Of a stretch of 28,978 nt of DNA, positions 8,251 to 14,256 are shown in pieces; position 1 is the stretch's first letter; every line of letters begins with the position of its first letter. The stretch comes from Rhodospirillaceae bacterium (lineage in GTDB: Bacteria; Pseudomonadota; Alphaproteobacteria; UBA8366; GCA-2717185). Under the pieces are notes generated by a model, which had not been told where the DNA came from, searched no databases, and saw only the letters and a list, made by a program, of their open reading frames with translations. A program made the translations under genes and the position numbers. The DNA is taken from positions 1-28,978 of the forward strand of contig PBDC01000017.1 of assembly GCA_002717185.1 (NCBI GenBank). Direction: 5' to 3'.

Positions 8251-8348
8251 GGAGACCTGCTATCGGTTCAGTCTTTTATCGAAACCGTTATAGCGGGTGT
8301 CTGTTCAGGCTGATATAGCGGTATCTACAAATTTTCGGTGTGTGGACG
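8251..8348. promoter_or_regulatory. Divergent promoter region with direct repeats
   Basis: A 98-base region shared by the dehydrogenase (minus) and phnW (plus). TATAGCGG occurs twice in the same orientation, at 8289-8296 and 8314-8321, 25 bases apart, and GTTCAG also occurs twice, near 8266 and 8303. This could be a regulator site; no regulator gene lies beside it. Exact promoter elements cannot be assigned. Confidence 0.35.
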
Positions 8349-9476
8349 ATGAGCAATCAGGAACCCTATTTGCTGACCCCTGGACCACTGACTACGTCGC
8401 AGGAAACTAAGGAAGCAATGCTGCGCGATTGGGGCTCGCGCGATATGGCTTTCATCGACATCAACCAGCAGGTCCGAGAACGGTTGGTCGTGATGGCGGG
8501 CGGTGACGACGCATTTACCTGTGTGCCATTGCAAGGCAGCGGGACGTTTGCAGTCGAGGCTATGCTGGCGACCTTTCTACCGCGCGACGGCAAGCTACTG
8601 ATCCTGATAAATGGTGCCTACGGTCACCGCATAGCGACGATCTGCGACTATCTTGGACGTCAATACGTGACCCATGAGACCTCGGAGGTCACTCCTCCCG
8701 ACGCGGCGGAGGTCGACACGCTGCTCAAGCAAGACGCGTCGATCACCCATGTTGCGATTATCCATTGCGAGACCACGTCCGGTATCCTCAATCCGTTGGG
8801 TGAAATCGCTGAGACGGTTGCAAAGCACAACCGGCGTTTGCTGGTCGATTCTATGAGTGCCTTTGGTGCGCTGGAGATCGATGTTGCGGCGCTACCGTGC
8901 GAGGCGATGGCCGCGTCCTCGAACAAATGCATAGAAGGCGCGCCGGGGATAGGCTTTGTCATCTGTCGCACCGATGCGTTGGGATTGGCGAAGGAAAACT
9001 CCCATTCGCTCAGCCTCGATTTGCACAATCAATGGGAGGTGATGGAGAGAAATGCGCAATGGCGGTTCACCCCGCCGACACACGTGATGGCAGCATTTCA
9101 TCAGGCTTTGATCGAGCATGCGGCAGAAGGCGGGGTGACAGGCCGTGGCGCCCGCTACAGGCGCAACTGCGATGTCCTGATTAAGGGGATGAGCGAATTG
9201 GGGTTTGTGCCGCTGCTGCCTGAAAGGTTGCGGGCGCCGATCATCATCACGTTTCATATGCCAGCCGATACGGCCTTTGTGTTTCAGGAATTTTACGACC
9301 GCCTGTCAAAAAAAGGGTACATTATCTATCCGGGCAAGCTAACCGTGGCGGAAAGCTTCCGTGTTGGCTGTATCGGCCGGATCGATGAGACGGTGATCCG
9401 TGGCGCGCTAGTGGCAATGGGCGAAACGCTGGACGAGATGGGTGTTAGGGATTGCGGCCTTGCTCAATTGGCGTAG
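8349..9476 (+). CDS. phnW: 2-aminoethylphosphonate:pyruvate aminotransferase
   Basis: A 375-residue class V PLP aminotransferase that converts 2-aminoethylphosphonate plus pyruvate to phosphonoacetaldehyde plus alanine. The family N-terminus LLTPGPLTTS follows ATG 8349; a GTG three codons upstream is possible. LRDWGSRD (25-32), LQGSGTFAVEA (61-71), D167 in LVDSMSAFG and the Schiff-base lysine K193 in SSNKCIEGAPG are all present. The C-terminal GYIIYPGKLT and FRVGCIGRI are characteristic of PhnW. The next gene, after 33 bases on the same strand, is phosphonoacetate hydrolase, so the downstream fate is oxidation to phosphonoacetate rather than PhnX cleavage. Confidence 0.95.
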   Translation: MSNQEPYLLTPGPLTTSQETKEAMLRDWGSRDMAFIDINQQVRERLVVMAGGDDAFTCVPLQGSGTFAVEAMLATFLPRDGKLLILINGAYGHRIATICDYLGRQYVTHETSEVTPPDAAEVDTLLKQDASITHVAIIHCETTSGILNPLGEIAETVAKHNRRLLVDSMSAFGALEIDVAALPCEAMAASSNKCIEGAPGIGFVICRTDALGLAKENSHSLSLDLHNQWEVMERNAQWRFTPPTHVMAAFHQALIEHAAEGGVTGRGARYRRNCDVLIKGMSELGFVPLLPERLRAPIIITFHMPADTAFVFQEFYDRLSKKGYIIYPGKLTVAESFRVGCIGRIDETVIRGALVAMGETLDEMGVRDCGLAQLA

Positions 9477-9509
9477 GCTGCCCTAAGCGCAATTGAAGGG
9501 AGTGCGGTC

Positions 9510-10769
9510 ATGGTTGGCAATCCGATTACCGTGAACGGTAAGGCCTACGCCTGGCCACAGGTACCGCTTGTCGTGGTTTGCATCGACGGGTCTGAACCGC
9601 ACTACATGGATGAAGCGATCGCCGCCGGCCGCATGCCCTGGTTGGCGCAAGTTCGAGATTCCGGTACCAACCGAATCGCTGACTGCGTCGTGCCCAGTTT
9701 CACCAATCCGAATAACATATCGATTGTGACCGGGATGCCGCCCTCCGTGCACGGGATTTCGGGAAATTTCTTCTACGACCGTGCGTCGGGCGAAGAAGTG
9801 ATGATGAACGACCCAAAATTAATGCGCTGCGATACCTTGCTTGCCAGATTTGCAGAGGCCGGCGCAAAGGTTGTGGTTGTGACCGCTAAGGAAAAGCTGC
9901 GGCGCCAACTTGGCAACAAGCTAGAGGGCATCTGCTTCTCCTCGGAACAGGCGGACAAAGCGACGCTCGAGGAAAATGGAATTGATGGTGTGGTTGAGAT
10001 GGTCGGCATGCCCGTACCGTCGGTTTACAGTGCTGAGTTGTCGGAGTTCATTTTCGCTGCTGGCGTAAAGATCATGGAGCGCGATCGTCCAGACATTATG
10101 TATCTGTCGACGACGGACTATATCCAACACAAACACGCGCCGGGCACTCCGGTCGCGAATGAATTCTACGCTATGATGGATGGTTACTGGGCGCAACTTG
10201 ACGGGTTGGGCTGCACGGTTGCGCTAACGGCCGACCATGGCATGAATGCCAAGCATGACCCGGATACCGGGAACGTCAATGTCGTCTATCTGCAGGACAT
10301 GATTGACCACTGGATTGGCGCTGGTAAGGCGCGAGTGATTCTGCCGATCACTGATCCTTACATTGTGCATCATGGCGCGCTGGGGTCCTACGCGACGATC
10401 TATCTGGACGATATTGTCGCAAAGGCGACGGTGACCGAAAAGTTGTCGGCGGTCGACGGTGTGCGCGAGGTGTTGAGCAATGCTGAAGCATGTACCCGCT
10501 TCGAATTGCCGCCAGAGCGGGTCGGCGACTTGGTCATCACGGGAGAACGACACATGACCTTGGGCAGTAGTGCCGACAAACATGATCTATCCGGCCTAAC
10601 GGAGCCGTTACGAAGCCATGGCGGCCCAACGGAGCAAAAAGTCCCGCTGATCGTGAACCGAGCGACGCCGGCGTTGCCTGCCTCCGCACCGCTGCGTAAT
10701 TTTAATGTCTTCGACGTGGCCTTGAACTATGTGGGTAAACCAGCGCAGACCGAGGGCGCAGCTAAGTAG
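9510..10769 (+). CDS. phnA: Phosphonoacetate hydrolase
   Basis: A 419-residue alkaline-phosphatase-superfamily enzyme that hydrolyses phosphonoacetate to acetate and phosphate. The two-zinc site is fully visible: D26 (CIDGSEP), nucleophile T65 (PSFTNPNN), D203 and H207 (TTDYIQHKH), D242 and H243 (TADHGM), and H370 (RSHGGPTE). Length and the TNPNN motif match PhnA of the PhnW-PhnY-PhnA pathway; this is not the unrelated E. coli protein of the same name. GGGAG precedes the start. It is probably co-transcribed with phnW. No phosphonoacetaldehyde dehydrogenase (PhnY) is encoded between or beside the two genes. Confidence 0.94.
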   Translation: MVGNPITVNGKAYAWPQVPLVVVCIDGSEPHYMDEAIAAGRMPWLAQVRDSGTNRIADCVVPSFTNPNNISIVTGMPPSVHGISGNFFYDRASGEEVMMNDPKLMRCDTLLARFAEAGAKVVVVTAKEKLRRQLGNKLEGICFSSEQADKATLEENGIDGVVEMVGMPVPSVYSAELSEFIFAAGVKIMERDRPDIMYLSTTDYIQHKHAPGTPVANEFYAMMDGYWAQLDGLGCTVALTADHGMNAKHDPDTGNVNVVYLQDMIDHWIGAGKARVILPITDPYIVHHGALGSYATIYLDDIVAKATVTEKLSAVDGVREVLSNAEACTRFELPPERVGDLVITGERHMTLGSSADKHDLSGLTEPLRSHGGPTEQKVPLIVNRATPALPASAPLRNFNVFDVALNYVGKPAQTEGAAK

Positions 10770-12501: not shown

Positions 12502-13029
12502 CTATATACGTTGTTTTCTCGGGTCCGGCACTTCAGGTGCCTGCTCTTCGAACGGCGGCACCTTGGTTGGAGGCACGGGAGGAGGGATGATCTCGATATT
12601 CAGATTGCCCAGCTCCTCCAGTGATTTCGGCGAGAAAGGTGTCGCAATGGTCACTGTTGATCCGCGCGAGGTCGCGTCGTCGACCGCCTGCTCCAATCGT
12701 TCGGCTAGCTCCTGACGCCAGGGTAGAGTGTAATAGCGTGGTTTCGTAGAGTTTTCGAGCTGCAACCATAGATAAATGGCTTCGCCTTCTTCGAAGCTGG
12801 CGCCGAGCACGACCGCGCTCAATGCCTCGCGTTCGAACCATTCGAAATCGATCGGTTTTGGCCGGCTCAACAGCTCCGTTAGTTGAACGTAGCCCAGCGG
12901 CATCAGCAAAGCGGAGGCGATCAGGGCAACGACTCGGATCGCTGTGCGACGTGGCGACCAGATAGCGATTGCGGCGAGTAAAGCGAACAAAGCGACCGTA
13001 CTGGCGAAGAAATAGATGAGGAACTCCAT
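12502..13029 (-). CDS. Membrane protein of unknown function, third gene of ExbB/ExbD-like operon
   Basis: A 175-residue protein I do not recognise. Two hydrophobic helices are visible, about residues 4-24 and 33-52. They are followed by a soluble domain with LSAVVLGASFEEGEAIYLWLQL (70-91), a helical LAERLEQAVDDA segment, and STVTIATPFSPK. The C-terminal tail is rich in proline (IIPPPVPPTKVPP, then acidic residues), a composition seen in proteins that span or contact the periplasm, such as TonB. Its ATG overlaps the stop of the ExbD-like gene (TAATG), so it is translationally coupled and probably part of the same complex. A role as the effector or linker of the motor is inference only. Confidence 0.75.
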   Translation of the reverse strand: MEFLIYFFASTVALFALLAAIAIWSPRRTAIRVVALIASALLMPLGYVQLTELLSRPKPIDFEWFEREALSAVVLGASFEEGEAIYLWLQLENSTKPRYYTLPWRQELAERLEQAVDDATSRGSTVTIATPFSPKSLEELGNLNIEIIPPPVPPTKVPPFEEQAPEVPDPRKQRI

Positions 13030-13628
13030 TACATGGGCTCCGTGATTAGACGTCGGCGGAGCGTTGTAACACTATCTTTGACCAACTCGCCCTTGTTGGT
13101 GAGGCGGAAGCGGAAAGCGGTCTCTTCTTGGTGGCGGTGCTTGAGCTTGACCTGGGTTTTCAAAATTTGTTTGGTCTGTTCCAGCTCTTTACGCACGCTG
13201 ACGACGACCGTAGCAGGGACAGTCATGCCAGGTGGAACCGGTCCGTACATGTGGACATTGACGATATATTCACCCGAAGGGATGCCTCGGCTGTAGGCAA
13301 CCTCGTAATTCTTTTCCGTCGCGTCACCCTCGGTGCCTAGATCGTCGCGCAGCAGGTTGAAGACCCGGTTACCGAGGTTCCAGAATCCGACTGGTGTAGA
13401 GTCGGGTCCCATGACCCACAAATCCACATCGACGGCCTGGTTGGTTGGCCAATGAAGCTCGACGATGACGTTGCCGGGCGCCTTGTGGTCCTCAGCTTCG
13501 ACCTCGGACTTCCGTAGATGTGGCAGCAGCATGACGACCATCGCCACAAAGCCGATCAGGGCGAGTAAAATTACATCGCGGAAGACGGTCCCAGTGGAGT
13601 CTTCTTCGAAGTCTTCAAGCTCTTTCAC
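13029..13628 (-). CDS. ExbD-like inner-membrane protein with YfaP/DUF2135-like periplasmic domain
   Basis: A 199-residue protein with a short cytoplasmic N-terminus (acidic, residues 1-16) and one membrane helix at about 17-36. D18 sits at the helix start (FRDVILLALIGF), the position of the proton-carrying aspartate in ExbD/TolR/MotB. After the helix the usual ExbD periplasmic fold is absent. Residues 53-145 instead look like a beta-sandwich of YfaP/DUF2135 type: VIVELHWPTNQAVDVDLWVMGP, then IPSGEYIVNVHMYGP. The C-terminal part is basic and helical. The GTG start at 13628 is supported by AGGAG six bases before it and by a 14-base overlap with the ExbB-like gene. Domain assignment of the periplasmic part rests on pattern resemblance. 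Confidence 0.75.
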   Translation of the reverse strand: MKELEDFEEDSTGTVFRDVILLALIGFVAMVVMLLPHLRKSEVEAEDHKAPGNVIVELHWPTNQAVDVDLWVMGPDSTPVGFWNLGNRVFNLLRDDLGTEGDATEKNYEVAYSRGIPSGEYIVNVHMYGPVPPGMTVPATVVVSVRKELEQTKQILKTQVKLKHRHQEETAFRFRLTNKGELVKDSVTTLRRRLITEPM

Positions 13629-14256
13629 GCGCTTCTCCTAGCTCGATGATCGCGCCGATTAGGCTGACCACACCGCTTGTCAGAAGTCGGTGGTTGATAA
13701 TCAGCCAGACGTAGAGGACGGCGCCGACCAGGGTCGTATAAAGCGCGACCGACATGCCGTTGATCAGCGTCGCCACCATCTCGGCAACGCTGTCGATTTC
13801 CGTCGCCGAATCCGGATCGACACCGGACAACGCGATGATGAAACCAATGACGGTGCCAATCAGGCCCAGGAAAACCAGCCCATTGGCAAGGTGGCGGATC
13901 ACCGCAACGTTTGTTCCCATCTTTAATTGTAAGGCCGAGGCGCCGAGTGCTTTGCTGTCCGCCCCGCCACCATAGATTGTTGCGAGATATTTCGCGGCGC
14001 GCGATCCCTCCTTCGGGTCGCCGCTGCGGATGTCATTTAACTCGATGCTCGTCTGCCAAATCCGCTTGCCGCAAGTGAAAAGGCTGAACAGAAACACGAT
14101 GAAAATGCCAAGCGATAGCTCCATTGTGACTGGCACAAAAATACCGTCTAGCCAGCCCTGCAGCCACGCGGCCAGCAATAGAGCCAGCGCTACGATATTG
14201 GCCAGCAAGAACCGCAAGAACAGCAGGTATCGGTGTGGTTTTGAAATCAGCTCCAT
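13615..14256 (-). CDS. MotA/TolQ/ExbB-family proton channel protein
   Basis: A 213-residue inner-membrane protein with four hydrophobic segments near residues 11-32, 42-62, 123-144 and 166-189. The third and fourth carry the family signature: LVFLGLIGTVIGFIIALSG, then NGMSVALYTTLVGAV, containing the conserved TVxG and ALxTTxxG patterns of ExbB/TolQ/MotA. It would form the stator pore with the ExbD-like subunit encoded next. AGGAG lies upstream of ATG 14256. Length and topology fit ExbB/TolQ rather than MotA or ZorA. No TonB, TolA or Pal gene lies nearby, so its energised partner is unknown. Confidence 0.85.
   Translation of the reverse strand: MELISKPHRYLLFLRFLLANIVALALLLAAWLQGWLDGIFVPVTMELSLGIFIVFLFSLFTCGKRIWQTSIELNDIRSGDPKEGSRAAKYLATIYGGGADSKALGASALQLKMGTNVAVIRHLANGLVFLGLIGTVIGFIIALSGVDPDSATEIDSVAEMVATLINGMSVALYTTLVGAVLYVWLIINHRLLTSGVVSLIGAIIELGEARERA

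Follow-up and report, generated by a model that had tools for sequence, protein, structure and literature searches.

A linked three-gene membrane module with an ExbB/TolQ-type channel and a DUF2135-like partner subunit in bacteria and rhizobial phages: a putative ion-driven stator

Three overlapping genes on the minus strand of the window analyzed here (a whole stretch of 28,978 nucleotides from a Rhodospirillaceae bacterium) encode the membrane proteins A, B, and C. They form a unit and, with a probability that we place at about 60%, work together as one inner-membrane ion-driven stator of the ExbBD/MotAB/ZorAB kind, which would act in the inner periplasm and be used by both bacteria and phages. 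Gene A (13615-14256, ATG start, 213 aa) encodes the putative ring or channel subunit, a member of the MotA/TolQ/ExbB family, gene B (13029-13628, GTG start, 199 aa) the putative axle subunit, composed of one helix and a predicted periplasmic sandwich, and gene C (12502-13029, ATG start, 175 aa) a third membrane subunit. The overlaps comprise 14 bases between A and B and one base between B and C (TAATG), which bears out the three-gene layout described in an earlier, sequence-only reading of this DNA. What that reading had observed of the trio was confirmed, and its interpretation was partly supported.

The 10 neighbors of the trio that were scanned in the window are ordinary metabolic genes. 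The Pfam scan of these 10 proteins revealed an aminotransferase, a phosphodiesterase, GDPD, two cupins, GST, CoA-transferase, TauD, a luciferase-like protein, and an FAD oxidoreductase/GCV_T protein; TonB, TolA, Pal, or a receptor was not found among these 10 proteins, as the earlier reading had also noted for this neighborhood. At window positions 8340-10769, a class-V aminotransferase gene precedes one for a type I phosphodiesterase (both assigned by Pfam), a pairing that we take to be possibly involved in phosphonate breakdown.

To count linkage, a genome collection was scanned with an alignment of B, and 253 loci were confirmed. The best 80 of these, chosen by B alone, were combined with the window (81 loci in total). 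The complete trio is found in 79 of the 81 loci, and both exceptions lie at contig ends (L029 ends 9 bases past the B match, and L046 begins 218 bases ahead of it). A directly precedes B in 79 loci. In 87 pairs of group I, the set to which the window belongs, the stop codon of A lies 583-637 bases ahead of that of B, i.e., approximately at the start of B. Besides the trio, no neighbor family is widely common to these loci: the largest other cluster covers 31 loci with scattered offsets, and a few small ones (6 and 4 loci) hold one fixed offset. A tonB or tolA gene constantly linked to the trio, which the sequence-only reading had named as evidence against its proposal, was not observed, and neither a nuclease or other effector nor an outer-membrane partner is constantly linked to the trio in the 81 loci.

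According to record titles, the trio loci belong to Alphaproteobacteria, Gammaproteobacteria, unplaced Proteobacteria, and one member of Burkholderiales (one Nitrospira MAG also appeared among the titles and was not counted), including the cultured Thalassobaculum litoreum and an Azospirillum. B was also detected in 7 of 72,556 plasmid records, all from Azospirillum and each with two copies of B. The earlier reading had looked to the Alphaproteobacteria for conservation of the trio; the linkage is indeed kept, but the range is wider and extends to other bacteria and to phages. In all 12 trio genomes tested, ordinary ExbD-family genes are also present, as are MotA/ExbB-family matches stronger than the A protein of the trio (12/12).

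Divergent trios are present in both proteobacterial classes sampled. The group I profile matched 59 of 385 genomes in the class of Thalassobaculum and 31 of 274 in the other class, counts that include some distant or partial matches. A second, divergent trio was found in one trio genome (the Granulosicoccaceae MAG of L080), and its B has relatives in 31 of the 274 genomes sampled from that class. Twenty regions from these genomes, together with L088, constitute group II, in which A, B, and C are present in 21/21 cases. Linkage is looser in group III, a distant alphaproteobacterial set, where 27 of 32 B genes are accompanied by A and 25 by C. One group II clade (L112-L117, L119-L121, and L127) contains, judged by eye, a same-strand YkuD-like L,D-transpeptidase (8/21 loci), a small lipoprotein (6/21), and a VWA/FHA-like protein (8/21), a neighborhood that possibly indicates a link to peptidoglycan. 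Other group II trios (L088, L118, L122, and L131) lie, again by eye, near alcohol-dehydrogenase/SoxYZ-like clusters. In addition, the alphaproteobacterial genome G649 encodes a tandem of B-like proteins (L183 9018-9674 and 9718-10254) and a third one (L185 9444-10049); neither A nor C was found near them, and one of them does not have the Asp-bearing helix.

A passes the Pfam cut-off for MotA_ExbB (PF01618; 30.9 bits against 22.9), and a simple hydropathy scan gives four segments (11-29, 39-57, 119-137, and 163-181) with a weaker fifth one (186-204), in agreement with the four-helix ExbB/TolQ-type channel recognized earlier. ExbB has three helices in all, and A differs from it by a second N-terminal helix. 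As expected for this channel family, the final channel helix of A carries a hydroxyl residue: the codons of Thr174-Thr175 occupy 13732-13737 (minus strand), and among 191 aligned A proteins from bacteria and phages, 190 have Thr or Ser at position 175. Position 174 varies in phage A (Thr in 29 and Ser in 19 of 57). The loop between helices 2 and 3 has a median length of 17 residues in phages versus 58, 87, and 79 in groups I, II, and III, respectively; phage A has kept the four helices and lost the cytoplasmic domain. Four of five phage A proteins scanned still pass the PF01618 cut-off, the exception being that of phage 16-3 (12.4 bits).

B shows one hydropathy segment (19-37). Its AlphaFold2 model, built with 25 aligned relatives, contains a single helix at residues 9-47, and the remainder is an eight-stranded all-beta sandwich (mean pLDDT 81.3; weakest at about 41-50 and 91-110). 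The codon of Asp18 in this helix lies at 13575-13577 and the sandwich (residues 52-176) at 13101-13475, both on the minus strand. With B as the query, 3629 of 3780 candidate proteins matched at E<=1e-3. The single helix with Asp18 described by the sequence-only reading holds well: Asp is found at this column in 87/87 group I, 18/21 group II, 28/32 group III, and 61/63 viral B proteins, i.e., in 194 of 203. The nine others comprise five with Asp four residues earlier (L119, L121, L127, L202, and L204), one with Glu nearby, two with no residue at this column, and one apparently misaligned; judging from the alignment, the shifted Asp is possibly a variant ion site. D67 and D69 of the periplasmic part are invariant across all 203 proteins.

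The periplasmic part of B is not ExbD-like, as had been claimed. The predicted structure is an all-beta sandwich; the standard ExbD/TolR periplasmic fold, which the sequence-only reading had named as a finding that would refute its proposal, was not predicted. A profile built from the full B set matches ExbD periplasmic parts at a probability of 1% (19 of 20 control sequences used). The match of this profile to ExbD as a whole covers 19 columns only at 14% probability, placing Asp18 on the helix Asp of ExbD. The window B matches nothing in Pfam up to E 10, and so neither PF02472 (ExbD/TolR) nor a vWA domain, the latter in accordance with the sandwich model; sequence searches against the PDB (up to E 10), NCBIfam, and PADLOC were likewise negative. 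As for the YfaP/DUF2135 identity suggested earlier, the sandwich fold and a profile match obtained with all B proteins together stand in its favor, and the window protein itself gives no Pfam match. The all-B-domain profile matches the DUF2135 protein L290, which was fetched by Pfam alone, at a probability of 77% (E 2e-5), compared with 0.7% for TerD, a family of calcium-binding proteins that resembles B by fold only. When the profile is restricted to group I, the DUF2135 match drops to 2%, and hence the kinship depends on the breadth of the B set. Pfam DUF2135 (PF09906) matches 9 of 22 aligned group I relatives weakly (best E 0.0027), one group II B exceeds the cut-off (22.3 vs. 22 bits), and none of six phage-isolate B proteins scanned passes it; therefore, we use the wording "DUF2135-like". 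Sequence comparison thus points to DUF2135/YfaP rather than ExbD as the relative of the B domain, with weak evidence for the family of the window itself. At L089 5254-6228, in a genome with two trios, the B profile also picked out (E 5.9e-6) a lipoprotein-like protein whose C-terminal domain is DUF2135-like.

C was earlier described as a protein of two helices and a proline-rich tail, and this description agrees both with its hydropathy segments (3-21 and 30-48) and with a structure model containing helices at 2-24 and 29-55, a small five-stranded domain with weak OB-type matches only, and a low-confidence proline-rich tail. Its search returned 137 relatives. Matches in Pfam, NCBIfam, and PADLOC are at chance level, and no TonB or TolA Pfam domain was found. 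TolA and TonB have a single helix, unlike the two predicted in C. Group I C proteins contain on average 2.49 Lys/Arg residues per sequence between the helices and 0.26 before the first one, and so both ends of C likely face outside; as another 2.25 follow the second helix, this topology is not certain.

The trio is also carried by tailed phages. The entry point was Rhizobium phage RHph_X2_25, in which C gave a weak tblastn match (E 4e-4) that is adjoined by A and B. B is present in 27 of 50,697 phage records, all from Rhizobium or Sinorhizobium phages and corresponding to 19 phages by our own count. All 14 isolates inspected among these 19 carry A, B, and C; eight of the 14 also served as model seeds and the other six did not. 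These 14 isolates are 16-3 (p038, p040, and p042), AP-16-3, NV1.1.1, TM3_3_14B, X2_25, N3_13, N3_19, and I1_18, as well as the Pootjesviridae N34, Y68, P10VF, RL2RES, RL38J1, and AF3. In X2_25 and TM3_3_14B, the trio is split by homing endonuclease genes. A scan of IMG/VR gave 67 loci, of which 54 have both A and C beside B; the others comprise five with C but not A, four with A but not C, two with A that end before C, and two with neither, each of which has one side at a contig end. Once eight isolate loci were added and the set was merged at 95% identity, complete trios made up 52 of 60 viral loci. Since some IMG/VR contigs are perhaps mis-sorted host DNA, the claim of phage carriage is based on the isolates. 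When viral origin is mapped on a quick tree containing 145 B proteins, eight changes are needed, at least three of which are forced by well-supported branches; the viral rows show long branches. A search with p040 returned 612 relatives, including proteins from Rhizobium, Sinorhizobium, and Ensifer genomes, which are perhaps prophages.

A trypsin-like protease gene lies upstream of the trio, within 3.5 kb and on the same strand, in 18 of 60 viral loci, compared with one of 141 bacterial B loci (0/88, 0/21, and 1/32 in groups I, II, and III); four 16-3-like phages supplied the sequences for the protease model, and these counts hence favor that group and miss others, such as the annotated protease of N3_13. 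The protease corresponds to PF13365 in X2_25 and is annotated as typically periplasmic in 16-3. This neighbor offers a hint regarding function.

In our preferred reading of the trio as a stator, five copies of A would form an ion-conducting ring, with the 5:2 stoichiometry taken from the family, and two B chains would run through its center as the axle. Asp18, the putative ion-carrying residue, would face the Thr pair of A, and inward flow of ions, presumably protons, would rotate B and, with it, the DUF2135-like sandwiches close above the membrane. The role proposed for C is to pass this movement on to a target in the inner periplasm. The head of B would reach only a few nanometers, and so the load probably lies near the inner membrane. 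In phages, the helices, the Asp, the head, and in most cases C are retained and the cytoplasmic domain is missing; this pattern suggests a machine that works on the periplasmic side. Our guess is that bacteria use the trio for envelope upkeep, and that phages use a stripped version to alter the envelope during infection, most likely in order to shut out competing phages (superinfection exclusion), with the trypsin-like protease as an addition in one phage group. We see about an even chance that unrelated tailed-phage lineages encode a complete minimal rotary motor that is run in the inner membrane of the host during infection, the chromosomal trio being the same machine, kept or domesticated.

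Other explanations deserve consideration. A and B may constitute a Zorya-type anti-phage defense, in which they would detect the disturbed envelope upon injection and set off a response, with phages defending their host from rivals; unlike the steady motor of the preferred reading, this would be a sensor that acts on a trigger. ZorA models are the nearest to A in PADLOC (best E 8.1e-7), and carriage by phages fits such a role. However, the ZorA match is limited to the common channel helices, A does not have the long cytoplasmic tail, the OmpA-like, peptidoglycan-binding domain is absent from B both by Pfam and in the model, no effector is constantly linked, and some carriers are T4-like phages, which have no need of host defense. 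We therefore regard this explanation as unlikely.

An even smaller likelihood is assigned to two further readings. Phage A, cut down to about four helices, could be a pinholin-like lysis or depolarizing channel regulated by B and C, and a lysozyme gene does lie about 3 kb upstream in RHph_X2_25. Such a channel would hardly explain why the periplasmic domain of B, and mostly C, are also retained, why chromosomal copies are widespread, or why, in N34, P10VF, RL2RES, and RL38J1, the trio has gyrase/topoisomerase genes on one side and late sigma factor genes on the other. Alternatively, the trio could be a conventional Ton/Tol-like transducer, C taking the place of TolA/TonB and pulling an outer-membrane partner encoded elsewhere. 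The gene order resembles tolQ-tolR-tolA and C has a proline-rich tail, but this tail is short, the two predicted helices and the small OB-like domain (weak matches only) do not suit such a role, and no outer-membrane partner is constantly linked.

Compared with known systems, A is a putative channel subunit of a known kind, sharing its Pfam family with ExbB and TolQ, and the helix Asp of B aligns, weakly, with that of ExbD; B without the ExbD/TolR fold and C without a Ton/Tol counterpart set the trio apart. The closest published idea found is the TPH-vWA axle proposal, which describes an Asp helix inside a TolQ-like ring, a different periplasmic domain, namely vWA, and tight gene linkage, mostly as gene pairs (PMC12204202, section 8). 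The trio differs from this proposal in the DUF2135-like sandwich of B, the third subunit, and phage carriage. In the literature searched, which leaves most subscription journals and preprints outside, we found no description of an axle with a DUF2135-like domain accompanied by a third subunit, or of phages carrying such a set. The trio would enlarge the small group of ion-driven stators by another kind of axle, joined by a third protein that is almost as constant as the other two, and would place such a motor in phages, where the literature search showed none. Phage A also hints that four helices with no cytoplasmic domain are perhaps enough for the ring. As 16-3 and its lysogens have long been studied, the use of a membrane motor by a phage is directly testable; the portions seen of three sources (PMC12505986, PMC11890865, and PMC10460002) do not mention p036 or p040 of 16-3.

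Several minor features of the viral records were also noted. In the viral contigs L223 and L229, a C-like gene stands ahead of the protease and A, giving the order C-protease-A-B. The annotated starts of B in AP-16-3 (L336 2438-2929) and of A in RHph_N3_19 (L335 1044-1385) seem too far downstream, and the frame of the latter is open upstream of its annotated start.
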